DNA of 64,000 nt from Alcaligenes faecalis (GTDB taxonomy: Bacteria; Pseudomonadota; Gammaproteobacteria; Burkholderiales; Burkholderiaceae_B), in the NCBI RefSeq assembly GCF_005311025.1, contig NZ_CP031747.1:3571870-3635869 (forward strand), given 5' to 3'. Shown piece after piece: positions 249 to 52,385 of the stretch (position 1 is its first letter; the number at the start of each line of letters is the position of its first letter). The notes under the pieces are model-generated. The model did no database searches. It was not told where the DNA came from and saw only the letters and a program-made list of their open reading frames with translations. Both the position numbers and the translations under genes were made by a program.

Positions 249-1337
249 TTACTTCTCCACGCCCCCACCCAAAATCACGCCGTTCACCTCCTTACCGTAG
301 TAACTTTCCTCGCCATCATGGAACTCCACACGCGCTTGCTCAACCGTCCCCTTCTGACGAGCATCCTTGGGACGCTCATGACTGTTGATGTAAGCCGCTA
401 CGTCCCAGGCATCCTGATCGGACAAGGAGAACGGTTTACCCAAAGGCATATTGGCCTTGATGAAACCAGCAGCCGTATCAATACGAGCCATCCCTGCACC
501 CCAGTTATACGAGTTGGGGCCCCACAAAGGCGGGAACACCACGCCACTTTCGGCATCCTTCTGCCCCTGGCCATCGACCGCATGACACAAGACACAGTTG
601 TTGGTGTAGACCTCTTTACCGCGTGCTACGTCATAGCCCAGTTCGGTCTTCTTAACTTTGGGGAAACCAGCACCCGGCAACTTCTGACCCGTAGGCGCCC
701 CATCGGACATCCAGTACATATAAGTCATCAAGTCACGATACACGTCGCTGCCAGCGGGCGGCGCAACACCCGAGGGCGAAGCCTGCGCATTCATGGAATA
801 GGTAAAACAGCCAATGATGCGATCTTCCAGCGTGCTGATCGCCTTGGTCTTGGCACGATAGGCGGGATAGCTGACATAGGCTCCCCACATAGGCGCAGAG
901 TGTTCACGACGACCACCGTCCAGGTGGCAGTTCACACAAGCCAAGGTATTGCCCACGTGATCCGACACCGTGGTCGAGGTTTCCATAAAGATCTTGTGAC
1001 CGCGACGAACCGCCTCGCCATACGGCGTATCCGGAATGCTGCTCTCTGGCGGTGGCACGTAATAACCATCTGCGCCTACCGGCATACCAGCCGTGACCGA
1101 ATGCTTGTCCTTGCTCTGTGCCTTGCGATCGGCTTCCATGGCCTCACGACTATAGGTGGCCTCGCCAAGCTGGATAGTGCCCTTGTCGGGCGAACCCAAG
1201 GAAAAGGACAACCAGCCCTTGGCATTCAAACCGTAGCCAATCGCAAAAAGCAGCACACCAATACCGGCCCCCCAGGCCAGTCTGCGTCCACCCGACATGG
1301 TGGATTTGCTGCGACCATTTTTTTGAGTGTCTTTCAT
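249..1337 (-). CDS. tsdA: TsdA-type dihaem thiosulfate dehydrogenase
   Basis: A dihaem c-type cytochrome of 362 residues. An N-terminal hydrophobic segment (about residues 18-37) gives export or a membrane anchor. Haem motifs are CVNCH (134-138) and CVLCH (248-252). Between them, R173, C177 and S181 follow the R-x3-C-x3-S spacing that I recall for Arg92, Cys96 and Ser100 of Allochromatium TsdA, where the Cys is the unusual axial ligand of the active-site haem. M297 in NMPLG fits the second haem's Met ligand. TsdA enzymes join two thiosulfates to tetrathionate in the periplasm. It is the last gene of a minus-strand operon with a c4-like cytochrome and ccoO/ccoN, which suggests electrons flow to that oxidase. 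The family call is firm; the direction (thiosulfate oxidation or tetrathionate reduction) is inferred. Confidence 0.85.
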   Translation of the reverse strand: MKDTQKNGRSKSTMSGGRRLAWGAGIGVLLFAIGYGLNAKGWLSFSLGSPDKGTIQLGEATYSREAMEADRKAQSKDKHSVTAGMPVGADGYYVPPPESSIPDTPYGEAVRRGHKIFMETSTTVSDHVGNTLACVNCHLDGGRREHSAPMWGAYVSYPAYRAKTKAISTLEDRIIGCFTYSMNAQASPSGVAPPAGSDVYRDLMTYMYWMSDGAPTGQKLPGAGFPKVKKTELGYDVARGKEVYTNNCVLCHAVDGQGQKDAESGVVFPPLWGPNSYNWGAGMARIDTAAGFIKANMPLGKPFSLSDQDAWDVAAYINSHERPKDARQKGTVEQARVEFHDGEESYYGKEVNGVILGGGVEK

Positions 1338-1358
1338 AAAAAGCTCTCTGTTCTGATC

Positions 1359-2174
1359 TTATTTCGCCTGCTTGCCATTGGCTGGCAGCGAGGCGGCGTA
1401 ATAGGAAACCGCATACAGGTCCTCGTAGGACAAGCGCGATGCGATGTCATCCATCAGGCTTTGCGGCGAGTTGTGACGATGGCCGCCTTTCCAGGCCGAC
1501 AACTGACTGAACAAGTACTCGGCCTGTTGCGCAGCCAACGGCGGGAAAGACGTACCTACGCCTTCACCCTGACTGCCGTGGCAACTGATACATGCAGGCA
1601 CGTTCTGCTTCCAGTCCCCTTTATGGAACAGGGCTTCGCCACGGGCCAGGTTCGCTTCCGAACTGGGCACATTAATGGCGGGAGCAGGCAGCTTGGCGTA
1701 GTAAGCAGCCAGCTCTTTCATATCCTCAGGCTTCAAACCGCGAGCTACGTACTGCATGGACTCGTTCAGGCGTGTACCTTGAGCAAAATCCTCCAGCTGC
1801 TTGAGCAGATACGCCTCGGGTATACCGGCCAAACGAGGAGTGATGCCTGCGCCTTCACCGGCCTCGCCGTGGCAGGAAGCACAGCTCCACACACTGCCCT
1901 GCCCCGAATGCACCAGTACGGGCGCATCCTTCAATGCGGGAATGGCTGGCACCACAGGGGTGCCGCCTGCATTGGAAGCAACGATAGCGGCGGTCGGCTT
2001 GTCCGCTGCGGCATGTGGCGCCAGATCGTGCAGGTAAAGACCCACACCGGCCAAGGCCAACGCGAACAGCACAGCCAACAGGAAGATCGGAATGGGACGC
2101 GGCGGCTCCCACGGCTCGAAGGTGGGGTCGATGTTCTCGACCTGGGGCGAACTAGAAACTTTTTCCATTGTCAT
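1359..2174 (-). CDS. tsdB: Membrane-anchored dihaem cytochrome c, c4/TsdB-like
   Basis: 271 residues: a short cytoplasmic start, one transmembrane helix (about 28-48), then two cytochrome c domains with CASCH and CISCH motifs, each followed by the G-x-G-x-G type loop usual in cytochrome c4. TsdB, the dihaem partner of TsdA in other bacteria, is c4-like, so this is the natural electron acceptor of the adjacent TsdA. A single anchored dihaem chain could also take the place of CcoP, for which no gene is visible here. It sits 21 bp upstream of tsdA and 8 bp downstream of ccoO, in one operon. The symbol tsdB rests on context; the cytochrome assignment itself is secure. Confidence 0.75.
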   Translation of the reverse strand: MTMEKVSSSPQVENIDPTFEPWEPPRPIPIFLLAVLFALALAGVGLYLHDLAPHAAADKPTAAIVASNAGGTPVVPAIPALKDAPVLVHSGQGSVWSCASCHGEAGEGAGITPRLAGIPEAYLLKQLEDFAQGTRLNESMQYVARGLKPEDMKELAAYYAKLPAPAINVPSSEANLARGEALFHKGDWKQNVPACISCHGSQGEGVGTSFPPLAAQQAEYLFSQLSAWKGGHRHNSPQSLMDDIASRLSYEDLYAVSYYAASLPANGKQAK

Positions 2175-2182
2175 GACTTGTC

Positions 2183-2833
2183 CTATTTAGCGCCCGAATC
2201 CGTCGAGGCTTCAGCGGGGCGACGATCGTAGCCACGGTCACGTTTATCCAGTTCCTGCGCGCTGGTCGCATAGGTGCGATCCAGAGCCAGCAGGTACTCC
2301 ACCAAGTCCAGCGCTTCCTTGCGAGCAACCACATGCTTGCCCGCAGGCTGCAGGGACTCTGGCAAACGCACCACTACATCGCCTTCGGAAACCTGGTCTT
2401 TCAGCTCGAACATATAGGGATAGGACGGCATCAGGCTCCAGTCAAAAATCGCACGGGGCTGATACAGGTGGGTCAAATGCCAGTCACGGCTTTTCATGCG
2501 CGCACCGACGTTAAACAGGTCCGGACCGGTACGCATGGTGCCCAGCAGGTGGGGCGAATCGTAAAAGTAATCGCCCGGTGTGGACGCACGGCCCCAGCCA
2601 CGTGCCGTATCAAACAGGGTTTGACCGGTAGAGCGTGGCTGCTGGCTGTGACAGTACAAACAGCCGTTGGCCACGTACTCGTCACGCCCCAGCAGTTGCT
2701 GGGCGGTATAGGGTTGCAACTGCTCCGGCGGTTCCGAGGTACGCAATTGCCAGGCTGGCAAAATCACCAGCATCAAGGTAGCCAGCAGCAACACGCCAAT
2801 GGCCCCGATTAGTAAAGGTAAGAGTCGATTCAT
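2183..2833 (-). CDS. ccoO: cbb3-type cytochrome oxidase subunit II (CcoO-like)
   Basis: 216 residues with an N-terminal membrane anchor (about 5-27) and one haem c motif, CLYCH (58-62), within the NGCxYCHSQQ context typical of CcoO. The later SLMPSYPYMF region supplies the expected Met ligand and is a CcoO signature. The start overlaps the end of the subunit I gene by 4 bp, which indicates translational coupling. CcoO is the monohaem subunit that hands electrons to the haem-copper subunit. Length is normal for the family. Confidence 0.93.
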   Translation of the reverse strand: MNRLLPLLIGAIGVLLLATLMLVILPAWQLRTSEPPEQLQPYTAQQLLGRDEYVANGCLYCHSQQPRSTGQTLFDTARGWGRASTPGDYFYDSPHLLGTMRTGPDLFNVGARMKSRDWHLTHLYQPRAIFDWSLMPSYPYMFELKDQVSEGDVVVRLPESLQPAGKHVVARKEALDLVEYLLALDRTYATSAQELDKRDRGYDRRPAEASTDSGAK

Positions 2834-4425
2834 GACGCATCTGCCCGAGCAAGTGTAGGAGTCGCATTAACAGCGGAACCTTTGCGCAGCAAGAGCAAGG
2901 CAAAGTGAGCCGCAAAGACAAAGTGGCCCAGTGTCATCATGGTGCCGCCAATAGAGCGGGCTTCCAGATACGGAACCATCTTGCGAGTGATCTCGCCAAA
3001 ACTTGAACCTGGGTCCATCAAGCCCATGCCCTGCACCACACCGGCAATGCTCAGAGCCAGCACGTAGATCGTGAAGCCTGCCGTCACCAGCCAGAAATGG
3101 GTTTTGATCAGAGCCGGGAAGGGCCAGCGACGTCCCAGAATGTGCGGCATCATGTAATACAGCGTGCCGAACATCACCATGGACACAAAGCCGTAGGCGC
3201 CCAGGTGAGCGTGACCGACGGTGTAATGTGTGAAGTGCGTCACCGAGTTCACCGAGCGGATCGCTTCCAGCGAACCCTGGAAGGAGGACAAGGTGTACAT
3301 CAGCGCGCCAATCCAGACGAAACGCAGGGCCATGGATTGCTTGAAGGCCCACAGGTTCTGCGCAACGGTTACGTGCTGGTTAATGGCCACGGCAATCACC
3401 GGCACAAACATCATGATGCTGTGCACCACGGACAAGGTGACGGCCCAGGTTGGCACCGGACCGCCCATCAAGTGGTGAATACCGACCTGGCTGTAGAACA
3501 GCGCCAGACTCCAGAAACCCAGCAAGGACACGTTGTAGGAATACACGGGCTTGCCGATGATCTTGGGGATGATGTAGTACGCCGCCCCCACACCCATAGG
3601 CGTCAGCCACAGACCCAGCACGTTGTGAGCAAACCACCAGTTCACGGTTGCTTGCTGAGCACCGATGTGCAGACCGGGGATGTTGGACACCAGAAACAGG
3701 AACGGAAACCAGACCATGCCGGCCAGGAAATACCAGCCCGACACATAGATGTGGCGCGATTTGCGGTTGGCGGCGGTTTCAATGGCAGGCCAGGCCAGGA
3801 AAAAGCCCCCTACTGCCAACAGAATGTCGATCTGCCAGGGGAATTCCAGCCACTCGATCCCGTCGGACCAGCCATTGGCCACGGCAATCGTGCCGCCCAG
3901 TACCCCCAGGGTCCACAAGGCGGCGCCGAAGTACACCATATTGGGACGTCGCAAAGGCGTATGAAAAATACGCGGCAACAACCACAGGGCCACGCCAATC
4001 CCGGTCACCGACAACCAGCCGTAAGCCACGATGTTCAGGTGCAAGGTACGCGCACGACCAAAGGTCACTTGTGCCACGTCGGCCAGCCAATCGGGCCAAT
4101 GCAATTTCAGCGAGGCCATCACGCCAAACACCGAACCGATCAGCAGCCAGGTAATCCCGACCGTGACCAGAAGCAGAACCGGCCCCCGACCACTACGGTC
4201 AATACCGGCACGCAAAACGTCAAAGCGATGTGTCTGTGCTTCGTTCTCCCCCCCAAAGGAAGCACTATCATCCGGCTGACCAAGCTCACCTTTCATGAAG
4301 ATGGTCTCAGCTTCGTTCTTCCCAACGAAGATCAGCTTGTTTGCCACGGCCCAGACAAGAATGCCCAGTGCCACCAAAGAGGCGACAAAACTGGTCGCCA
4401 GTAATATTCCTAATATAGGAGTCAT
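2830..4425 (-). CDS. ccoN: cbb3-type haem-copper oxidase subunit I (CcoN-like)
   Basis: 531 residues with about 13 membrane segments. The segment WWFAHNVLGLWLTP carries a copper-B histidine, PVYSYNVSLLGFW carries the tyrosine typical of cbb3 oxidases, HHLMGGPVPTW carries the His pair, and HYTVGHAHLGAYG carries the haem-b ligands. The glutamate-rich VEGVWE signature of nitric-oxide reductase NorB is absent, so an oxygen-reducing oxidase is favoured. It is longer than usual CcoN (about 475): an extra N-terminal helix (about 1-28) and a polar linker (to about 80) precede the normal fold. It is first in the operon with ccoO, the dihaem cytochrome and tsdA; no ccoQ, ccoP or ccoGHIS gene is present in this window. 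Confidence 0.92.
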   Translation of the reverse strand: MTPILGILLATSFVASLVALGILVWAVANKLIFVGKNEAETIFMKGELGQPDDSASFGGENEAQTHRFDVLRAGIDRSGRGPVLLLVTVGITWLLIGSVFGVMASLKLHWPDWLADVAQVTFGRARTLHLNIVAYGWLSVTGIGVALWLLPRIFHTPLRRPNMVYFGAALWTLGVLGGTIAVANGWSDGIEWLEFPWQIDILLAVGGFFLAWPAIETAANRKSRHIYVSGWYFLAGMVWFPFLFLVSNIPGLHIGAQQATVNWWFAHNVLGLWLTPMGVGAAYYIIPKIIGKPVYSYNVSLLGFWSLALFYSQVGIHHLMGGPVPTWAVTLSVVHSIMMFVPVIAVAINQHVTVAQNLWAFKQSMALRFVWIGALMYTLSSFQGSLEAIRSVNSVTHFTHYTVGHAHLGAYGFVSMVMFGTLYYMMPHILGRRWPFPALIKTHFWLVTAGFTIYVLALSIAGVVQGMGLMDPGSSFGEITRKMVPYLEARSIGGTMMTLGHFVFAAHFALLLLRKGSAVNATPTLARADAS

Positions 4426-4677
4426 GTGAATAAATGCCCGATATCTGTCATGCGGCTAAGCCTAAAGAAACGTCATTGCCCAAGCCGGTTTTATTAAAAA
4501 AGTAAGTACCGAGATACAAATGCAATGCAATCTACATCACAGTAGAGGATCAGGATTAAGGCCAAATTAAGAGAACTTTCCCTCTCGCCCCTGCCCTCAA
4601 GGCTGCTAACATGAACGCCGAAACGTAATAAACATCAGGCTTTGCCTGCACAAGCCGCATTTACCACAGGGGGGAGA
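4426..4677. promoter_or_regulatory. Divergent promoter region, oxidase operon and two-component system
   Basis: 252 bp separate the start of the minus-strand ccoN operon from the plus-strand response regulator. It must hold both promoters. I see AT-rich stretches around 4490-4570 but no clear FNR box or tandem repeat that would name the regulator. The arrangement suggests that the response regulator acts on the oxidase operon, which is inference. Confidence 0.5.
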
Positions 4678-5340
4678 ATGCACGTTTTACTTGTTGAAGA
4701 TGATGCGCTCGTCGCCAGCGGAATTGTGGCGGGCTTGCGACTGCATGGGCTGACCGTGGACCACGTGGGCACGGCCAGCCTGGCCGACACGGCCTTGCTG
4801 TCTTCGCACTTTGATGTCTGTATTCTGGATCTGGGTTTACCTGATCAGGACGGGCTGACGCTGCTGCGGCGTTGGCGCGAACAAGGCCGTAAACTGCCCA
4901 TTCTGATTCTGACGGCTCGCGACGCCCTGCATCACCGGGTTGAAGGGCTGCTGGGTGGGGGCGATGACTATGTCATCAAACCTTTTGACCTGGACGAGCT
5001 GCTGGCACGCCTGCATGTATTGACACGACGTGTGGCGGGCCACGAAACAGATTGCATTGAATATGGGCGACTCAGTTTCTGTGCCTCCACCGGCCATGTC
5101 ACCCTGGACGGCAAGCCAGTCAGTCTGGCGCGACGTGAGCTCTCCTTGTTGCGTGCCCTGCTCAGCAAACCGCACACCATCCTGAGTGCCGAACAACTGT
5201 GCGACAGCGTCTACGGCTACGATCAGGATCTGGAAAGCAATGCCATCAATGTGCACATCTACCATTTGCGCCGCAAGCTGGGCAGCAATATTGTCGAGAC
5301 CGTGCGGGGCCTGGGCTACAAACTGGGGCCTGCCGGTTAG
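4678..5340 (+). CDS. OmpR-family response regulator (QseB/TctD-like)
   Basis: 220 residues: receiver domain (1-115) with acidic pocket E7/D8/D9, phosphoacceptor D51 and K101, then a winged-helix DNA-binding domain (about 125-218) ending in the usual TVRGLGYKL motif. The ATG at 4678 was chosen because a strong ribosome site (GGGGGGAGA) lies just before it and the receiver fold begins at once; an in-frame upstream start at 4642 would add an unrelated tail. The histidine kinase follows after 12 bp. Divergent placement to the ccoN-tsdA operon suggests control of that operon or of the sulfur genes downstream; the signal is unknown. Confidence 0.9.
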   Translation: MHVLLVEDDALVASGIVAGLRLHGLTVDHVGTASLADTALLSSHFDVCILDLGLPDQDGLTLLRRWREQGRKLPILILTARDALHHRVEGLLGGGDDYVIKPFDLDELLARLHVLTRRVAGHETDCIEYGRLSFCASTGHVTLDGKPVSLARRELSLLRALLSKPHTILSAEQLCDSVYGYDQDLESNAINVHIYHLRRKLGSNIVETVRGLGYKLGPAG

Positions 5341-5352
5341 GTATTTCACACC

Positions 5353-6705
5353 ATGAGCCTACGCCTTAGATTGCTGCTGGTTATCGGCATTTCCCTGACC
5401 GTGCTCTGGAGTGCAGTCGCCACCTGGATGCTGATGGATGCACGCCACTCCTTGCGTGAAGCGCTGGATAGCCGACTGGCAGCATCGGCCCGCATGGTGG
5501 CTGGACTGGTTGCCCAATTTCCAAACTTGCAGGAGTTGGCCCAATCCGCAGAGCGCCCCCTGGACATCATTGCCCGAGATGGGGTGGCTTGCGAAATCAG
5601 TGTGGTGCGCAGCGAAGTAGAAATTCAGGCGGTCAGCCGAACTGCGGGTAGCCCGGATATGTCACAAGTGGCTTTGGGCTTTGGCACGCACGTGCATGGT
5701 GGCAAGCGCTGGCGCACCTTTGTGCTGCGCGAAGGCCATATTCAGATTGCCGCCGCCGACAGCATAGAAATACGCGAAGCACTGGTACGGGAAATCATGC
5801 TCTCGGCTGGCCTGCCCTTTGTCGTGGCCTTGTTTGGTAGCCTGCTGCTTTTGTGGGTTGGTATCGGTCACGGCCTGGCTCCCCTGGAGCGAATTCGGGA
5901 CATGCTGTCGCGCCGTCGTCCCGGGGACGACAGCCCACTGCCCAAAGTCAACGTCCCGGTTGAGCTGCAACCCTTGCTGCGAACCCTTGAGGAACTACTG
6001 GAGCGGCAACAAGCCGCCATCATGCGCGAACGCCGCTTTACCGATAGCGCTGCCCACGAACTGCGTACACCCCTTACCGGAATCAAAACCCATATTCAAG
6101 TTGCCCATCTGGCTGCCCAGCGTCCTGGAGAACGCAACACGCTGGATACGGCCTTGAGCCAGGCAGACCAGGGCGTGCAACAGCTACAGAACATTTTGCA
6201 GCGGCTGCTGGAGTTGGCACGGCTGGACGGGCAAAGCGCCCGAATGGAAAGTAGCCAGGCCGACGAGGCGGTATACGCTGCCCTGCATGCCCTTAAAGCC
6301 ATCTACGGCGACACCATAGACCAGATCACGCTGGATATACGCAGCAAACCCGGCCCGGTGCAGATTGAAAAATCCCTGCTGACAGTGGCCGTACAGAATC
6401 TGATCGACAATGCCTTGCGCTATACCAAAGCCCAGCAACCGATCAGCCTGCGGATTGAAGCAGGAGAGCCGGGCTATCTGCGTCTCAGGGTGCTGGACCA
6501 CGGTCCCGGATTAAGCGACAGCGAACGGGATCTGGCCATGAACCGTTTTTGGCGCGGCTCGCAACAACAGGCGGGCTACGGCTTGGGCTTGTCGATTGTG
6601 AACGCGATCGCCACCCAGCATGGCGGAACGCTGGAGCTGCTGAATCGCAAAAGTGGCGGGCTGGAAGCGCGTCTGACCGTGCCCCTTGCCGACCAGGGCA
6701 ACTAA
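5353..6705 (+). CDS. Sensor histidine kinase (QseC/TctE-like)
   Basis: 450 residues. Transmembrane helices at about 8-28 and 148-171 flank a periplasmic sensor region of roughly 120 residues. The dimerisation domain has H235 in the HELRTPL box; the ATP-binding part has N353 (N box), D382 in the DHGPGLS box and GYGLGLSIV (about 408-416). It is cotranscribed with the response regulator 12 bp upstream. The sensor domain shows no named fold that I recognise. A terminator follows at 6725, so the pair is its own unit. Confidence 0.92.
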   Translation: MSLRLRLLLVIGISLTVLWSAVATWMLMDARHSLREALDSRLAASARMVAGLVAQFPNLQELAQSAERPLDIIARDGVACEISVVRSEVEIQAVSRTAGSPDMSQVALGFGTHVHGGKRWRTFVLREGHIQIAAADSIEIREALVREIMLSAGLPFVVALFGSLLLLWVGIGHGLAPLERIRDMLSRRRPGDDSPLPKVNVPVELQPLLRTLEELLERQQAAIMRERRFTDSAAHELRTPLTGIKTHIQVAHLAAQRPGERNTLDTALSQADQGVQQLQNILQRLLELARLDGQSARMESSQADEAVYAALHALKAIYGDTIDQITLDIRSKPGPVQIEKSLLTVAVQNLIDNALRYTKAQQPISLRIEAGEPGYLRLRVLDHGPGLSDSERDLAMNRFWRGSQQQAGYGLGLSIVNAIATQHGGTLELLNRKSGGLEARLTVPLADQGN

Positions 6706-6724
6706 AACCAAGCCACGCAATAAA

Positions 6725-6757
6725 AAAAGGCCGGAGCCCATCAGGGTCCGGCCTTTT
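6725..6757 (+). terminator. Terminator after the histidine kinase gene
   Basis: AAAAGGCCGGA at 6725-6735 pairs with TCCGGCCTTTT at 6747-6757. It is an 11-bp stem with A and T ends, so it can stop both the two-component operon and the convergent cold-shock gene. Confidence 0.85.
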
Positions 6758-6798
6758 CTGTTTGACGAGGTGCTTGCCTGTTTCAGGCAAGCCCATCA

Positions 6799-7008
6799 TC
6801 AAAGAATTTGGATTTTAGTTGCGCATGGGCCTTTTTGGCCTGCACCTTCGATGAAGGAAACGCGTTGGTTCTCTTCCAGAGTTTTGAACCCGGTTCCCTG
6901 AATTTCACTGTGGTGTGCGAAGAGATCCTTGCCGCCGTTCTCCGGCACGATGAATCCGAAGCCTTTTTCGCTGTTGAACCACTTCACAATACCAATTTCT
7001 GTCTTCAA
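6799..7008 (-). CDS. Cold-shock-domain protein (CspA family)
   Basis: 69 residues forming one cold-shock domain. The RNA-binding motifs KGFGFI (RNP1, about 15-20) and LFAHHS (an RNP2 variant, usually VFVHFS) are present, as is the [12 protein letters not shown] start usual for the family. Such proteins bind single-stranded RNA or DNA and loosen secondary structure. It stands alone, convergent to the histidine kinase and divergent to the sulfur locus. The HH in RNP2 is a mild departure from the common HFS. Confidence 0.93.
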
Positions 7009-7412
7009 AATAAGTCCTAAATGTAATAACGATCAGAGAAAAAAATTTTCTCTCCCTGAACTATCCTCCGATTGCGTCCACAAAGATAGCTCCGTTACTT
7101 TTTAATTGTAAAAATCCGGAAATTCTGTTGTTTCCTGAGCCTGTCCATCCTGTTTGTCTAGCGCCGCCCTTGCATCCGGGATGCCACTGCGCACCATGTC
7201 CGGGCCAGTTGCCCCTGCCATCTCCAACACAAGAACGCCTGGGGAAAAGCGCCGCCATTTCAGCGCCAAACGGTATTTGAGGCCTGAACAACTTACTTCA
7301 GCCTATAAAAAATCCCCACGCAATCAAAGCACTCTTGGCTATACTGGCTCGCACTTAGCGGTCTACTTATCCTGATTGACGTGTGTCATGTCATGATCAC
7401 GAGGAACATACA
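7009..7412. other. Gene-free region: csp leader and fccB/sox promoter
   Basis: About 400 bp between the divergent cold-shock gene and the sulfur locus. The part next to the cold-shock gene (to about 7130) is AT-rich and likely its transcribed leader. A TATACT hexamer at 7340-7345 could be a -10 element for the sulfur operon, but no good -35 partner is visible. I see no credible coding sequence. Confidence 0.4.
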
Positions 7413-8741
7413 ATGAATCGTAGAAACTTCCTGCTGGCCACGCCGGCTGCCGCATTTGGAACCCTGGTTCTGCCCTCTGCCAGCCTCTCGGCCCCCTCCA
7501 TCATTACCAACACCAGCCAGATCCTGCCGCGCCACACCAAGGGCCCGCGCATTGTCATTTGTGGGGGCGGCTGGGGTGGGATGACAGCTGCCAAGTACCT
7601 GTCCAAGCTGGTGCCCCAGGCACAAGTGGTGCTGATCGAACGCAACCCCACGTTCTGGTCCGGCCCCATGAGCAACAAGTGGCTGATTGACATCGTCAAC
7701 ACGGATTTCCTGAACCACGACATGCTGGCGCCCTCCATCAAGTACGGCTACAGCCTGGTTCATGCCGAAGTCACCGCCATCGAGCGCGACAAGAAAACCG
7801 TGCGCACGACCCAAGGCGCGCTGGAGTACGACTACCTGATCCTGTCGGGCGGCATACGCAATGCCTACGATGCCTGGTTTGGCAATGACACTTACGCGGC
7901 GGAATACACCCGCCAGCACTTTCCCAACGCCTACATCCCGAATGCCGAGATGTTTGCCTTGAAGAACAAGCTCAAAGCCTTCAAGGGCGGCACCATTGTG
8001 ATGACGCTGCCCCCGCCACCGCATCGCTGCCCGCCCTCGCCCTACGAGCGCGCCTGTTTGATGGCCTGGCATATCAAGACCAACAAGATTCCGGGCAAGA
8101 TCATCATTCTGGACCCCAAGCCCACCATTGCCCCGATTGGCGAGGGATACCGCGCAGCCTTCCAGGAGCTGTACCCGGACATCATCACCCACGTCCCCAA
8201 TGCCCGAGTGCGTGAGGTCGATCCCTTCAAGAAGCACATCAAGACCACCGCCGGCGATTTTGATTTTGACGACGCGGTGCTGATGCCCCCGCACCAGGCC
8301 GCCGATATGGTCTGGAACGCAGGCCTGGTCGGTACAGGCCCCGATGGCAAACCCACGGGCTGGGCCAATATTGACCCACGCCTGTTCACTGCCCGCGACG
8401 ACGACAATGTCTACGTGGTGGGGGACTCCATGGGCTTTATTTCCGACCAGTTCGGCCACTACCCCAAGAGCGCCCACGTGGCACACGCCGTAGCCAAGAT
8501 TGTTTCCCAGAACCTGGCCGAACGTATCGCGGGCAAGGAAGTGGTGCCCGTGCTGCCGGATAATCTTTGCTACATGATGGTCAACGGAGATCCGCAAGAA
8601 GAAATCTCGGTCAAGTTTGAATACGAGCTGGACGCAAGCGGCAAGGTTCTGCAAACCCAGATCGATATGGATGTCCGTACCTCCGACCTTGTTCAAGAAG
8701 ACTTCCAGTGGATCAAGACCCGTTTCAATGACTTCCTCTAA
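7413..8741 (+). CDS. fccB: Flavocytochrome c sulfide dehydrogenase flavoprotein-like (FccB paralogue 1)
   Basis: 442 residues starting at the ATG behind GAGGA. A Tat signal (RRNFLL, residues 3-8, plus hydrophobic stretch) directs the folded FAD protein to the periplasm. FAD-binding GGGWGG is at 51-56. In characterised FccB proteins one Cys in the xTCPxxN motif binds FAD covalently and two others form the redox disulfide. Here the first motif reads WSGPMSN, with G84 in the Cys position, while C206 (RCPPSPYERAC) and C386 (NLCYMMV) remain. It may hold FAD non-covalently or do a different persulfide reaction. It overlaps soxY by 14 bp. A complete paralogue with all three Cys lies at 10093. Confidence 0.85.
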   Translation: MNRRNFLLATPAAAFGTLVLPSASLSAPSIITNTSQILPRHTKGPRIVICGGGWGGMTAAKYLSKLVPQAQVVLIERNPTFWSGPMSNKWLIDIVNTDFLNHDMLAPSIKYGYSLVHAEVTAIERDKKTVRTTQGALEYDYLILSGGIRNAYDAWFGNDTYAAEYTRQHFPNAYIPNAEMFALKNKLKAFKGGTIVMTLPPPPHRCPPSPYERACLMAWHIKTNKIPGKIIILDPKPTIAPIGEGYRAAFQELYPDIITHVPNARVREVDPFKKHIKTTAGDFDFDDAVLMPPHQAADMVWNAGLVGTGPDGKPTGWANIDPRLFTARDDDNVYVVGDSMGFISDQFGHYPKSAHVAHAVAKIVSQNLAERIAGKEVVPVLPDNLCYMMVNGDPQEEISVKFEYELDASGKVLQTQIDMDVRTSDLVQEDFQWIKTRFNDFL

Positions 8742-9231
8742 ACTTCCCTCCCGTTTTGTCCGCCGCCGCCAGCTTGTACTGGGCAGTGCCGCCGGACTGG
8801 GTGCCGCGTGGCTGCCCCTCAATCTGCATGCGCAAGTTGCCTTTGATCAATTGCTGAAACCGGCCACTGCGGCCCAGGTCCAAGCCATTGTGGACGAGTT
8901 CCTGAAAGGCGCCAGCCCAGAAGAAAAAGGCATGAAGCTGGATATGCCCGCTCTGGGCGACAACCCCGCCGCAGTGCCCGTCAAAGTGGTGCTGGACTTG
9001 CCCGCGAGCGACGATGTGTACTGCCAGGAACTGATCATTCTGGCCCAGGGCAACCCGCATCCGCTGGCCTGCCGCTTTAACTTCACCGCCCTGGCCGGAA
9101 CAACAGAAGTCGCAGTTCGCCTGCGCCTGATTGAAACCCAAACCATCCGCGCCCTGGCACGGTTAAGCGATGGCCGCGTCCTGAGCGCCCAGCATCACAT
9201 CACGGTGACTGCTGGCGGCTGCGGCATGTAA
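8728..9231 (+). CDS. soxY: SoxY sulfur carrier subunit
   Basis: 167 residues with a Tat-type signal (RRRQLVLGSAAG, about residues 10-21) and a C-terminal GGCGM tail, the swinging-arm cysteine of SoxY on which sulfur intermediates are carried as thioconjugates. SoxY needs the twin-arginine path because it is exported folded with SoxZ. The start at 8728 places the Tat motif in the normal position and overlaps the flavoprotein gene by 14 bp. soxZ follows 13 bp later. No soxXA, soxB or soxCD is in the window, so it probably serves sulfide or thiosulfate handling by the flanking flavoproteins rather than a full Sox multienzyme. Confidence 0.92.
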   Translation: MTSSKLPSRFVRRRQLVLGSAAGLGAAWLPLNLHAQVAFDQLLKPATAAQVQAIVDEFLKGASPEEKGMKLDMPALGDNPAAVPVKVVLDLPASDDVYCQELIILAQGNPHPLACRFNFTALAGTTEVAVRLRLIETQTIRALARLSDGRVLSAQHHITVTAGGCGM

Positions 9232-9244
9232 ACAAGGGGCACTC

Positions 9245-9571
9245 ATGAGTAAACCACGTATCTGGATCAGCAATGCCAAGCCCAAGGCGGGCGACATGGT
9301 GCGCGTGCGCGCCCTGGTCGAACACCGTATGGAAAGCGGTCTGCGCCTGAGCAAGGAAGGCCAGGTTGTGCCGCGCAACATCATCCACGAATTCAAGGCC
9401 ACCTTTAACGGCGAGCCCTTGTTCAACTGGCAGCCGGAAACCGCGATTTCCCAAAACCCGTACATTGAATTTACCTTTGTCGCACGACGTTCCGGAGTGC
9501 TGGAAATGAGCTGGACGGACGATCAAGGCGCTGTCATTACCGGCCAGACGGAGCTGAGCATCAGCGACTGA
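9245..9571 (+). CDS. soxZ: SoxZ sulfur carrier partner
   Basis: 108 residues without a signal peptide, matching the usual SoxZ size and its immunoglobulin-like fold; the run PKAGDMVRVRALVEHRMESG near the N terminus is a family hallmark. SoxZ forms the heterodimer with SoxY and rides on its Tat export. It directly follows soxY. A hairpin at 9612-9634 lies between it and the next gene. Confidence 0.93.
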   Translation: MSKPRIWISNAKPKAGDMVRVRALVEHRMESGLRLSKEGQVVPRNIIHEFKATFNGEPLFNWQPETAISQNPYIEFTFVARRSGVLEMSWTDDQGAVITGQTELSISD

Positions 9572-9611
9572 TTGCGGACCAGTTCCAGCCCGGCCCCCTG
9601 ACCTGCCCCAT

Positions 9612-9634
9612 TCAGCGCCCTTAACGGGCGCTGA
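9612..9634 (+). terminator. Hairpin between soxZ and the cytochrome gene
   Basis: TCAGCGCCC (9612-9620) pairs with GGGCGCTGA (9626-9634) over a 5-base loop. No long T-run follows, so it may be a weak terminator or an mRNA-stabilising element that divides the sulfur locus into two units. Confidence 0.5.
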
Positions 9635-9736
9635 GTTCATAACAGTGTTCTATATAGTCATACAAGGTGGGCGTAAGGGGAATGCTACGCTGAGCGTCCT
9701 TTCCTACAACGATGCACATTGACAAGAAGAATGCCC

Positions 9737-10090
9737 ATGTCCCTCTCTCTGGTAGGTCGTCTCCTTTTTGCCCCCGCCTTGCTCGTGGCCAGCAGTGCTA
9801 CCGCACCGGCCTGGGCCAGTTCCACGCTGGACATCAAAACGGTGGCCAGCTCCTGTGCGAACTGTCACGGCCCGGATGGGCGTTCCACGACCATCATTCC
9901 CTCGCTGGCTGGCCGCCCCGAAGCGGTGTTGCTGGAGCAACTGCGCGCCTTTGCCTCCGATACGCCTCCGGCTGGCACCACCATCATGAGTCGCCTGGTC
10001 AAAGGCTACCAGGATGCGGATCTGGAAGCCCTGGCACGTTATTTCTCTGCAGTCTCCTCCACCCCTCGCAGCGTTGCGGAAGGACGTTAA
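9737..10090 (+). CDS. fccA: Small cytochrome c, FccA-like subunit
   Basis: About 117 residues: Sec signal peptide ending near APAWA, then one cytochrome c domain with CANCHG and a later Met in the TTIMSRL region as candidate axial ligand. It directly precedes the second flavoprotein gene (2 bp gap), the arrangement of FccA/FccB or SoxE/SoxF pairs, in which the cytochrome takes electrons from the flavin of FccB. It has a single haem, unlike the dihaem FccA of Allochromatium. ATG at 9737 has an AAGAAGA site six bases upstream; ATG at 9731 is an alternative. Confidence 0.82.
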   Translation: MSLSLVGRLLFAPALLVASSATAPAWASSTLDIKTVASSCANCHGPDGRSTTIIPSLAGRPEAVLLEQLRAFASDTPPAGTTIMSRLVKGYQDADLEALARYFSAVSSTPRSVAEGR

Positions 10091-10092
10091 GA

Positions 10093-11388
10093 ATGAGCAC
10101 ACCCTTGAACTCCTCCCGTCGCCAGTGGCTGAGCCGTGTCGGTAAAACCAGTGTGGCTGGTCTGGCCTTGAGCACTCTGCCTGTGTACGCGCGCAGCAGC
10201 TCGGCCCATGTGATTGTGGTCGGTGGCGGCTTTGGCGGTGCAACCGCTGCCCGTTACTTGAAGCGCGGTGATCCATCCCTGAAAGTCACCTTGATTGAAC
10301 CGGCCACCACCTTTTACACCTGCCCGTTCACCAATCTGTATCTGGCCGGTTTGCGCCGTTTTGAACAGCAAGGCCACGGCTTTGATGATTTGCGCGCAGC
10401 CGGTATCGATGTCATTCACGACCTGGCCACCGCGGTCGACTCCCAGGCCAAAACCCTGACCTTGGCCAAGGGCCAGAAGCTGTCTTACGACAAGCTGCTG
10501 CTCTCACCCGGTATTGATTTTCGCTGGAACACGCTGGAAGGCTATGACGAAGCCGCTTCCTTGCTGGCCCCGCACGCCTGGAAAGCGGGCGATCAAACCC
10601 GTTTGCTGAAAAGTCAGCTGGATGCCATGCCCGACGGCGGCACCTTCATTATGGTGGCCCCCGAAAACCCCTTCCGCTGCCCGCCCGGCCCTTACGAGCG
10701 CGCCAGCATGGTGGCTCACTACTTCAAGCAGAACAAACCCAAGTCCAAGATCCTGCTTCTGGATGCCAAAGACAGCTTCTCCAAACAGGGCCTGTTCCAG
10801 GATGGCTGGAAACAAGTCTATGGCGACATGATCGAATGGGTGCCCTTCTCCAAAGACGGCAAAGTCACTCGCGTGGATGCCGCCAAGCTGAGCGTGGAAA
10901 CCGAGTTTGGCGAGATCCACAAAGCCGATGTGTTGAACGTGATCCCGCCACAAAAAGCCGGAGCCATTGCCGAACAGGCCGGTGTCACCAACGCCAGCGG
11001 CTGGGTGCCAATTGACCCGCATACCTTCGAGTCCGAACAGGTCAAGGACATCTATGTGGTGGGCGATGCCACCATTGCCTCACCCATGCCCAAATCCGGT
11101 TTCTCTGCCAATACGCAAGCCAAGCTGGCAGCGGCTGCCATCATTAATGCCTTGAGCGGCAAGCCTGCGCCACAGGCCACACTGAGCAATACCTGCTACA
11201 GTTTGATCGCTCCCGACTATGGCATTTCTGTGGGGCACTTGTACGCCTTTGCCGATGACAAGCTGGCTGAAGCGTCCGGCGGGGTCAGCCCTAAAGAAGC
11301 CAGCCCGGCCTTTCGCAAGCAGGAAGCCCAGTATGGCGAGGCCTGGTATGCCGCGATCAGTCGCGACATCTGGGGCACCAAAGGCTAA
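10093..11388 (+). CDS. fccB: Flavocytochrome c sulfide dehydrogenase flavoprotein (FccB paralogue 2)
   Basis: 431 residues with a Tat signal (RRQWLS at 9-14). The FAD site GGGFGG is at 44-49. All three functional cysteines expected for FccB are present: C77 in YTCPFTN for covalent 8-alpha FAD linkage, C196 in RCPPGPYERAS and C368 in NTCYSLI for the redox disulfide. It should oxidise sulfide or persulfide in the periplasm and pass electrons to the small cytochrome encoded 2 bp upstream. The match to FccB/SoxF is strong along the full length, in contrast to paralogue 1, which lacks the first cysteine. Confidence 0.93.
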   Translation: MSTPLNSSRRQWLSRVGKTSVAGLALSTLPVYARSSSAHVIVVGGGFGGATAARYLKRGDPSLKVTLIEPATTFYTCPFTNLYLAGLRRFEQQGHGFDDLRAAGIDVIHDLATAVDSQAKTLTLAKGQKLSYDKLLLSPGIDFRWNTLEGYDEAASLLAPHAWKAGDQTRLLKSQLDAMPDGGTFIMVAPENPFRCPPGPYERASMVAHYFKQNKPKSKILLLDAKDSFSKQGLFQDGWKQVYGDMIEWVPFSKDGKVTRVDAAKLSVETEFGEIHKADVLNVIPPQKAGAIAEQAGVTNASGWVPIDPHTFESEQVKDIYVVGDATIASPMPKSGFSANTQAKLAAAAIINALSGKPAPQATLSNTCYSLIAPDYGISVGHLYAFADDKLAEASGGVSPKEASPAFRKQEAQYGEAWYAAISRDIWGTKG

Positions 11389-11421
11389 GTTGTTCCAACC
11401 CGGTCCTAACATCCAGCACAC

Positions 11422-12429
11422 ATGATGAATACAGAACTTGTACTGTGGGTCAGCTTGGCCATTGGCCTGCTCTTTGGCATTAGTGGCCAGCTCAGTGGTT
11501 TTTGCTTTTATCGTGGCTTGACCGAGCGCTGGTCCGGGCGTAGCGGCTACAAGCTTCAGGGCTTTGCCCTGGCGCTGGCCGTGGCCCTGGCCGGGACACA
11601 ACTGGCGGCGGGCTACGGGCTGATCAGTCTGGACAAGGTCCTGTACCTGAACCCCACTTTCTCCTGGCTGCTGGTGCCGCTTGGAGGTGTGCTCTTTGGG
11701 GCAGGCATGACCCTGGCTAATGGCTGCGGCGCCCGAGCTCTGGTTCTGTTGGGACAGGGAAATCTGCGCTCCTTTGTCGTCGTGCTTTGTCTGGGTATCG
11801 CCGCCTATGTCACCTTGACGGGCCTGCTGGCGCCGCTGCGCATGAGCATCGCCCAAGCCAGCAGTGTCACCTTGCCCGCAGCGACCCTGTCCGAGGGTCC
11901 CCTCCGCTCTATGGTGATTGCCCTCCTCGTCGCCGCCCTGATCGCTTTTGCCTTACTGCGTCGCCAGGACGGCCAACGCCTGAATGACCTGCTGGCCGGA
12001 GCATTTGTAGGGCTGCTGATTGTGGCAGGCTGGCTGACTACCGGCTGGCTGGGCGATGATCCCTTCGAGCCTTTACCCGTCAGCTCGCTAAGCTTTGTCG
12101 CCCCGATTGGGGAAAGCATTCAATACGCCATGATCTCCACCGGCATGAGCCCGCGCTTTACCATCATGATTGTGGTGGGTGTGGTGGCTGGCTCCTTGCT
12201 GAGCGCCCTGCTGCGTCGCCGCTGGAAGCTGGAAGGTTTTGAGTCGCCCCGCCACATGCTGCGCTCCATGGCAGGCGGTGCCTTGATGGGCGTAGGTGGC
12301 GTGCTGGCCCTGGGCTGCACCATAGGCCAGGGCTTAAGCGGCTTGTCCACCTTGTCGGCCACCTCCTTGCTGGCGGTGCTGGGCATTATCGTCGGTGCAC
12401 GTCTGACCTGGACCCGCCCAAGCGCCTGA
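11422..12429 (+). CDS. YeeE/YedE-family (TsuA-type) thiosulfate or sulfur transporter
   Basis: 335 residues, about nine hydrophobic segments. Three conserved cysteines sit in family positions: C28 in SGFCFYRG, C102 in ANGCGARALV and C299 in ALGCTIGQGLSG; in YeeE these pass thiosulfate across the membrane by S-H-S hydrogen bonding. It follows fccB2 by 33 bp on the same strand, so it probably imports thiosulfate or exports a sulfur product of this locus. The family call is firm; substrate and direction are inferred. Confidence 0.88.
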   Translation: MMNTELVLWVSLAIGLLFGISGQLSGFCFYRGLTERWSGRSGYKLQGFALALAVALAGTQLAAGYGLISLDKVLYLNPTFSWLLVPLGGVLFGAGMTLANGCGARALVLLGQGNLRSFVVVLCLGIAAYVTLTGLLAPLRMSIAQASSVTLPAATLSEGPLRSMVIALLVAALIAFALLRRQDGQRLNDLLAGAFVGLLIVAGWLTTGWLGDDPFEPLPVSSLSFVAPIGESIQYAMISTGMSPRFTIMIVVGVVAGSLLSALLRRRWKLEGFESPRHMLRSMAGGALMGVGGVLALGCTIGQGLSGLSTLSATSLLAVLGIIVGARLTWTRPSA

Positions 12430-52308: not shown

Positions 52309-52385
52309 TGGTGGCGCATCCCTGATTCGAACAGGGGACCTGCGGATTATGATTCCGTCGCTCTAACCTGCTGAGCTAATGCGCC
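52309..52385 (-). tRNA. tRNA-Met (CAU)
   Basis: The minus strand reads GGCGCAT as acceptor stem, a D arm with GCTCAG, anticodon loop ATCATAA with CAT at positions 34-36, T arm CCCTGTTCGAATCAGGG and the ATGCGCC closing strand followed by an encoded CCA. Length is 77 nt with CCA. The first anticodon-stem pair is A-C. The sequence fits elongator tRNA-Met better than tRNA-Ile(CAU), inferred from the acceptor stem. Confidence 0.93.

Follow-up and report, generated by a model that had tools for sequence, protein, structure and literature searches.

We describe a four-gene operon, ccoN-ccoO-dihaem cytochrome c-tsdA, which occupies positions 4425-249 on the minus strand of a 64,000 nt stretch of Alcaligenes faecalis (assembly GCF_005311025.1, contig NZ_CP031747.1, 3,571,870-3,635,869; hereafter the window, whose positions are used throughout) from a complete genome of 4.20 Mb. 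Judging from sequence comparisons, we propose with a probability of roughly 0.7 that the operon encodes a dedicated thiosulfate:O2 oxidoreductase, probably assembled as a complex. It is a new combination built from known families, and its central element is the third gene, whose product appears to be a chimera of the dihaem cytochrome TsdB and a CcoP-type oxidase anchor. The gene order and the spacings of -4, 8 and 21 nt had been proposed in an earlier sequence-only reading of this DNA and are borne out by the open reading frames (ORFs): ccoN and ccoO overlap by 4 nt (ATGA), 8 nt separate ccoO from the dihaem cytochrome gene and 21 nt separate the latter from tsdA. The following features were assigned to the operon:

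2830-4425, minus strand: catalytic subunit I (ccoN-like) of a divergent haem-copper oxidase of the C family, 531 aa (COX1 266.5 bits; 3mk7_A, E 9e-66)
4201-4425, minus strand: CcoS/FixS-like N-terminal extension of CcoN, aa 1-75 (FixS E 0.033; the model shows helix 2-28 and a low-confidence linker)
3277-3279, minus strand: codon of Gln383 at the canonical Glu323 position (P. stutzeri-like numbering; alignment)
2183-2833, minus strand: ccoO-like monohaem subunit II, 216 aa (FixO 111.2 bits, cut-off 29.6; CLYCH and SLMPSY)
1359-2174, minus strand: CcoP-type anchor joined to a TsdB dihaem cytochrome, apparent chimera of 271 aa (TsdB profile 203 bits; anchor profile E 9e-10)
2010-2120, minus strand: CcoP-type anchor, aa 19-55, with FEPWEPPRPIP (hhalign local prob 87.9, E 3e-6)
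1374-1919, minus strand: TsdB/c4 dihaem domain, aa 86-267 (5lo9, E 1.5e-34; 6q2u, E 2.4e-28)
249-1337, minus strand: tsdA, thiosulfate dehydrogenase, 362 aa (5lo9, E 2.5e-86; 4wqc, E 2e-52)

The Pfam scores (COX1 266.5, FixO 111.2, Cytochrom_C 59.1 and SoxA-TsdA 35.4 bits) all exceed the curated cut-offs, and an Rfam search gave no match inside the operon.

The dihaem part of the third protein reaches 203 bits with a hidden Markov model of 57 plain TsdB and 18.8 bits with one of canonical CcoP, which rules it out as an ordinary CcoP. Its top matches in the PDB are 5lo9 (E 1.5e-34) and the cytochrome c4 6q2u (E 2.4e-28; the same sequence is found in 8smr/8snh), and Met140 and Met241 of the TsdB/c4 domain are invariant in an alignment of 14 rows. 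The anchor was compared by means of a profile of 20 anchors, taken from third subunits of related oxidases outside the dihaem group; this profile detects all seven anchors of the dihaem group (E 3e-14 to 1.5e-8; 9e-10 for the window protein) and none of 80 controls (57 plain TsdB, 21 TsdA and 2 separate TsdB; best E 0.11). None of the 57 plain TsdB carries such an anchor, which sets the window protein apart from them. In a local alignment the anchor matches nine canonical CcoP in a segment that precedes a helix and runs into it (hhalign prob 87.9, E 3e-6), its E-x3-P-x-P being in register with the ELN-x-PVP of canonical CcoP, and Glu23 corresponds to the Glu of ELNTPVPRWW. These comparisons indicate that the protein earlier described as c4-like is a TsdB dihaem domain placed on a CcoP-type oxidase anchor. 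The sequence-only reading had noted the absence of ccoP and ccoQ; neither standard gene is present in the operon, but an anchor of CcoP type is retained within the dihaem protein.

Related loci encode the same parts in three states. The two gammaproteobacterial loci L029 and L032 have one gene for a CcoP-like cytochrome with an anchor and a single haem, and another for TsdB. At the alphaproteobacterial loci L020-L028, L030 and L031 a single chain of 414-416 aa with three CxxCH motifs joins anchor, CcoP-like monohaem domain and TsdB, and at L013-L019 the dihaem protein consists of anchor and TsdB only. This series of separate genes, trihaem chain and dihaem chimera amounts to a natural experiment on the parts of CcoP that an oxidase needs, and suggests that the helix with its Glu is needed and the haem domains are not.

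The linked loci come from a TsdA scan of genome contigs, of which the best 80 of 125 relatives were analysed; the nearest named relatives are two Alcaligenes with TsdA identities of 94 and 92%. The order ccoN-ccoO-(third gene or genes)-tsdA is present in 20 of these 80 loci (L013-L032), in alpha-, beta- and gammaproteobacteria, and both end genes form clades; the gene order, which the sequence-only reading had left to be searched for, is conserved. With near-copies merged (L015 with L016; L023-L027) 15 loci remain. Hosts are Alcaligenaceae, Alphaproteobacteria (Paracoccus, Shinella, Pelagibacterium and others, some of them metagenome-assembled genomes, MAGs) and those of three gammaproteobacterial loci. 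ccoN is visible at 19 of the 20 loci, the contig of L019 ending inside ccoO with ccoN beyond it; this locus is of the dihaem type in a gammaproteobacterial MAG and could represent a second loss or a transfer. A P1B ATPase gene directly follows tsdA at 18 of the 20 linked loci and had no match in the sequenced flanks of the 60 others. No CcoN match was found in the flanking DNA of 57 of the 80 TsdA loci, which rules out that all tsdBA loci are oxidase-linked; gene absence counts for less at 10 of the 60 loci L033-L092 because their flanks are short (less than 4 kb upstream or less than 3 kb downstream of tsdA). Among the 121 genomes of the window's family, 53 have a TsdA match at E ≤1e-20. Nine TsdA of at least 64% and nine CcoN of at least 69% identity occur in the same nine genomes, the window's own included, and are adjacent to each other; among the matches listed, no other TsdA place lies close to a CcoN.

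In the CcoN tree the TsdA-linked proteins form one clade (support 99/99, 13 rows) beside sister oxidases without tsdA, and the oxidase-linked TsdA likewise form one clade in the TsdA tree (Shimodaira-Hasegawa-like approximate likelihood ratio test 95, 16 rows). The simplest history to be read from these trees would be a single recruitment of an existing oxidase by tsdBA, followed by fusion and then by loss of the monohaem domain. The operon is carried together with the ATPase gene on the Paracoccus versutus plasmid pBEN, which is typed as conjugative, and on a plasmid of Indioceanicola profundi, and a P. aminovorans plasmid carries ccoN and the trihaem gene. Near-identical TsdA (343-344 of 344 aa) were noted at L023-L027, which come from one Shinella genome and from MAGs bearing the labels Tardiphaga, Bradyrhizobiaceae, Rhodospirillales and Rhizobiales; this is either a mobile island or MAG contamination. 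Two Acetobacter and one Komagataeibacter (L059, L061, L062) show the order tsdB-tsdA-ccoN-ccoO with a different CcoN lineage, an independent link of tsdA to an oxidase; as the three TsdA matches do not differ from one another, a recent transfer is suggested.

All 13 TsdA-linked CcoN that were aligned keep the His ligands of haem b, haem b3 and CuB as well as Tyr251, T215, S240 and Y317, and the window protein also has N289. The cross-link Tyr and the K-channel residues are typical of O2 reductases and are not known from nitric oxide reductases (NORs); the Tyr is present in the window CcoN, and ligands and Tyr together argue against an NO reductase. Position 323 is Gln in all 13 TsdA-linked and in 19 of 21 sister CcoN, and Glu in all seven canonical ones. 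The window CcoN is about 33% identical to the canonical CcoN of the same genome and scores 247.8 bits with the NCBIfam ccoN equivalog model, below the cut-off of 583.15. It belongs to a lineage separate from canonical CcoN, and because of this separation (about 33% identity, Gln at the conserved Glu) 'cbb3' is a loose label. Of the term cbb3-like used in the sequence-only reading, the C-family ligands and the FixO subunit hold good, but the CcoN lineage is a different one. CcoO is of the monohaem FixO type of C-family oxidases (Pfam FixO over cut-off). The predicted CcoN fold has a cbb3-like core that matches 3mk7_A with a template modelling score (TMt) of 0.85 (predicted local distance difference test, pLDDT, 71; predicted template modelling score, pTM, 0.80), and begins with a single N-terminal helix (residues 2-28) and a low-confidence linker.

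The N-terminal extension of CcoN resembles FixS to varying degrees. In the genome's own paralogue L004 the match is 3e-5, over the Pfam cut-off, and three other CcoN have a FixS-like N-terminus at 6.6e-5 to 8e-4, below it; both sister CcoN of the genome carry a CcoS-like N-terminus, and the CcoN of L032 has no extension. At L103 a separate FixS ORF lies directly upstream of ccoN (E 1.9e-5, over cut-off), and FixS/ccoS, ccoN and ccoO are distinct adjoining ORFs at 6189-8520 of that locus, an arrangement that is possibly the pre-fusion state of a CcoS-CcoN chain. Insertion of haem and CuB is reported to need CcoS, and copper to need CcoI (PMC8267372).

TsdA of the window has two CxxCH motifs and the R-x3-C-x3-S pattern (RIIGCFTYS), confirming the haem and active-site pattern named in the sequence-only reading, and both are present in all 21 oxidase-linked TsdA checked (near-copies included). 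Its PDB matches are 5lo9 (E 2.5e-86), which we take to be the TsdBA fusion of M. purpuratum, and the thiosulfate dehydrogenase 4wqc (E 2e-52). The haem-2 motif is KxNM, and 5lo9 likewise has NM at haem 2 in the alignment. A hydrophobic stretch at the N-terminus resembles an uncleaved anchor, as judged by eye, and tsdA is single-copy in the host genome. A knock-out study of Pusillimonas ginsengisoli SBSA reportedly found tsdA to be the required enzyme; this is the older name of the species of L015. Locus L020 is from Paracoccus thiocyanatus, the TsdA of which has a substrate affinity reported to be above that of its Sox system (PMC9237845). Directly upstream of the operon, L023 (3355-4266) and several similar alphaproteobacterial loci encode another dihaem protein, which is distantly related to TsdA (about 35%).

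Upstream of the operon the following features were found:

4555-4571, minus strand: direct repeat CTTAAT-N5-CTTAAT, 146 nt upstream of ccoN
4678-5340, plus strand: response regulator of OmpR type, PmrA/QseB-like, divergent from the operon (Pfam, NCBIfam)
5353-6705, plus strand: sensor kinase with 2CSK_N domain (Pfam, NCBIfam)

The direct repeat is the sole match in the window with at most one mismatch, and we take it to be a response-regulator box of PmrA/QseB type. In a widened form the box precedes 14 of 16 linked operons, all 14 of them alpha- or betaproteobacterial (near-copies L016 and L024-L027 as well as L017 and L019, which have no upstream DNA, were left out of the count), and it precedes none of 21 sister ccoN and none of 56 plain tsdB, against a background of 0.013 per 500 nt. 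The response regulator scores 216.9 bits with the NCBIfam PmrA model and 211.4 bits with QseB, both under cut-off, and response regulator and sensor kinase occupy the same place in L013-L016 and L018. The probable regulator of the operon is this two-component system of PmrA/QseB type. A plain tsdBA locus in Noviherbaspirillum (L056) lies near a response regulator gene (10229-10888) whose product is 66% identical to that of the window. The linkage, the clades and the box argue against chance co-location of tsdA and the oxidase.

The host genome holds further oxidases. Searched with COX1, it yielded six strong matches and a single weak one; going by score and length, two of these are probably an oxidase of A type and a NOR of quinol type, and four C-family CcoN genes were found, the operon's included. 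The sequence-only reading would have been refuted by a complete ccoNOQP elsewhere in the genome if combined with negative biochemistry, and such a set does exist: L011 comprises canonical ccoN-ccoO-ccoQ-ccoP and ccoS (FixS 54 bits; FixQ just at cut-off; FixP_N E 3e-21), and there are two divergent ccoN-ccoO-monohaem c sets besides (L004/L009 and L005/L010). The ccoI-like gene next to the canonical set (L011, 3797-4783) encodes only 328 aa, with a partial E1-E2_ATPase match below the Pfam cut-off and no hydrolase domain; the CPC motif remains, as seen by eye. The sister oxidases share about 50% CcoN identity, carry the E.{4}[ILVM]P anchor in all 12 third subunits compared, and are followed by a gene of SCO1/SenC type at 16 of 21 loci (L004, L005 and family genomes L100-L118; two members were tested). 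No tsdB or tsdA was found in the flanking DNA available for the sister loci, which makes it more likely that the oxidase was recruited than that it was invented for thiosulfate.

The operon stands in a sulfur neighbourhood. Beyond the two-component system a cluster at 7413-12429 (plus strand) contains soxY, soxZ and a TsuA/YeeE-like transporter gene, with flavoproteins resembling sulfide:quinone oxidoreductase or flavocytochrome at 7413-8741 and 10108-11388 and a one-haem cytochrome at 9719-10090; SoxZ alone exceeds its cut-off. SoxB had no match in the host genome, and the SoxA profile found there only TsdA itself, below cut-off; the operon would point to thiosulfate oxidation in a genome without a SoxB match. 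Elsewhere in the window a glycine riboswitch (Rfam RF00504; 23929-24018, plus strand) and a tRNA (52312-52385, minus strand) were noted.

From these elements we infer a physical complex with an electron path, reaction direction and mode of proton uptake. Anchored TsdA would convert two thiosulfates into tetrathionate at the Cys-ligated haem, and the electrons would leave by its second haem for the dihaem domain of TsdB. As this domain is fused to a CcoP-type transmembrane helix, it would form the third subunit of the oxidase instead of acting as a free shuttle. Electrons would continue to the haem of CcoO and then, within CcoN, to haem b and to the b3-CuB site of O2 reduction. Entry would thus be at the level of cytochrome c, bypassing bc1, and the PmrA/QseB-like system would probably be in control. 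The Glu of CcoP forms the entrance of the K proton channel; the retained helix probably supplies this residue (Glu23), which would explain why it was kept. The self-contained thiosulfate-to-O2 chain of the sequence-only reading, with the c4-like protein as TsdB and CcoP substitute, survives in so far as a TsdB domain, a CcoP-type anchor and separate and fused states in relatives were found, but recruitment of an existing oxidase is a likelier origin than invention for thiosulfate. On the whole we think it somewhat better than an even bet that a terminal oxidase replaced its cytochrome subunit with the acceptor of a dehydrogenase and kept the CcoP helix for proton uptake, yielding a single thiosulfate-oxidising, O2-reducing membrane complex without a mobile carrier that spread over alpha-, beta- and gammaproteobacteria, with plasmids typed as conjugative among its vehicles.

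The most serious competitor, which we nevertheless regard as unlikely, is a general oxidase in which the c4 chimera is an all-purpose input reduced by bc1 and soluble cytochromes, TsdA being one co-transcribed donor. In the sister oxidases, of which two are in the same genome and others in relatives, the third subunit is monohaem and tsdA does not adjoin, a c4 chain is part of the P. aeruginosa bc1-cbb3 supercomplex, and c4 is reported as a known donor to cbb3 (PMC11549363); yet the third subunit of the linked clade carries a TsdB-type domain, and the linkage in nine of nine genomes together with the absence of the box before sister ccoN points to a thiosulfate-specific unit. Far less credible is that TsdA works in reverse as a tetrathionate reductase fed by the c4 chimera, with the oxidase as a separate branch. 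The fusion joins TsdB to an oxidase, which is an electron sink, and the NM at haem 2 is shared with 5lo9, which we take to be the M. purpuratum protein. M. purpuratum TsdBA is reported to be biased toward oxidation, although TsdA enzymes are bidirectional and the TsdA of Campylobacter jejuni, which has the same KxNM (Lys252, Asn254 and Met255 at haem 2), acts as a tetrathionate reductase (PMC5146829). We consider it just as improbable that NO reduction or O2 detoxification, and not energy conservation, is the task of the oxidase core: the divergent CcoN, the Gln at the Glu323 position and a weak sequence similarity to NorB chains would fit, but the cross-link Tyr and K-channel residues are invariant, and Foldseek with the CcoN model ranks cbb3 chains above NOR chains.

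Several observations weigh against a dedicated thiosulfate:O2 oxidoreductase or the evidence for it. The sister oxidases without neighbouring tsdA mean that the operon oxidase may also accept electrons from other cytochromes, and the bidirectionality of TsdA and a KxNM as in Campylobacter leave the reaction direction unfixed by sequence. Regarding the anchor, its homology to the CcoP helix depends on profiles made in the present analysis: the global hhalign alignment with canonical CcoP gives prob 13.7 (E 5e-4), Pfam FixP_N has no match to the window anchor and matched only one of nine anchor pieces (that of a paralogue from the same genome, E 0.015, below cut-off), and the pattern E.{4}[ILVM]P, present in 27 of 27 anchors and in 0 of 78 controls, was derived from the same anchors. 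In CcoN the FixS match of the window protein is weak (E 0.033), and two of the 21 sister CcoN (L117, L118) have Glu at position 323. The P1B ATPase of the operon is absent from both Alcaligenes loci, and the window genome has only distant relatives of it (32-33% identity). TsdA and CcoN positions in the family genomes were paired by eye, and in a sample of 398 genomes of the phylum, with at most three candidates scored in each, the TsdA-linked CcoN type was found in none of the 397 others. The CcoN tree contains long branches (Acetobacter, L103), and L029 and L032 are flagged as maybe falsely joined; the TsdA tree was a quick one from which five near-copies were excluded. The widened form of the box, [CG]TTAA[TG], was chosen once the relatives had been viewed and is post hoc, the 16 operons counted include near relatives, and the box is missing from both gammaproteobacterial operons tested.

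TsdB has been reported as the immediate acceptor of TsdA and proposed as a possible donor to cbb3 (PMC9237845). If the dedicated oxidoreductase is real, TsdB donates to its oxidase as part of it, which would settle that suggestion for this lineage, and a respiratory chain of substrate dehydrogenase, cytochromes and oxidase would be one complex encoded in a single operon.

Among the open-licence papers listed by the literature searches, no title or abstract start describes the operon; an earlier mention of the gene order is possible. A second cbb3 subtree of different subunit composition, the 'distal' cbb3 (Ducluzeau et al. 2008, cited in PMC8788666), has been described, and the 'distal' ccoNO of Sideroxydans is reported to increase on thiosulfate (PMC8788666). 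With the known TsdA/TsdB systems (4wqc and relatives; 5lo9) the operon shares the TsdA active-site motif, the two haems and a dihaem TsdB partner with conserved Met ligands encoded just upstream, whereas here TsdB is fused to a CcoP-type anchor, which 57 of 57 plain TsdB lack, and tsdA lies in an oxidase operon. The CcoN ligands, the cross-link Tyr, the FixO-type CcoO, the CcoP-type anchor helix and the CcoS-like segment are shared with canonical CcoNOQP (P. stutzeri 3mk7), as is a neighbouring P1B ATPase in the operon's relatives; the differences lie in the CcoN identity of about 33%, the Gln in place of Glu323 and the lack of ccoQ and of the CcoP dihaem domains. The bc1-cbb3 supercomplex of P. 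aeruginosa (8smr/8snh) likewise pairs a dihaem c4 with a cbb3 oxidase, but there c4 is a separate chain complexed with bc1, while the genes of the operon place a TsdB covalently on the oxidase anchor.

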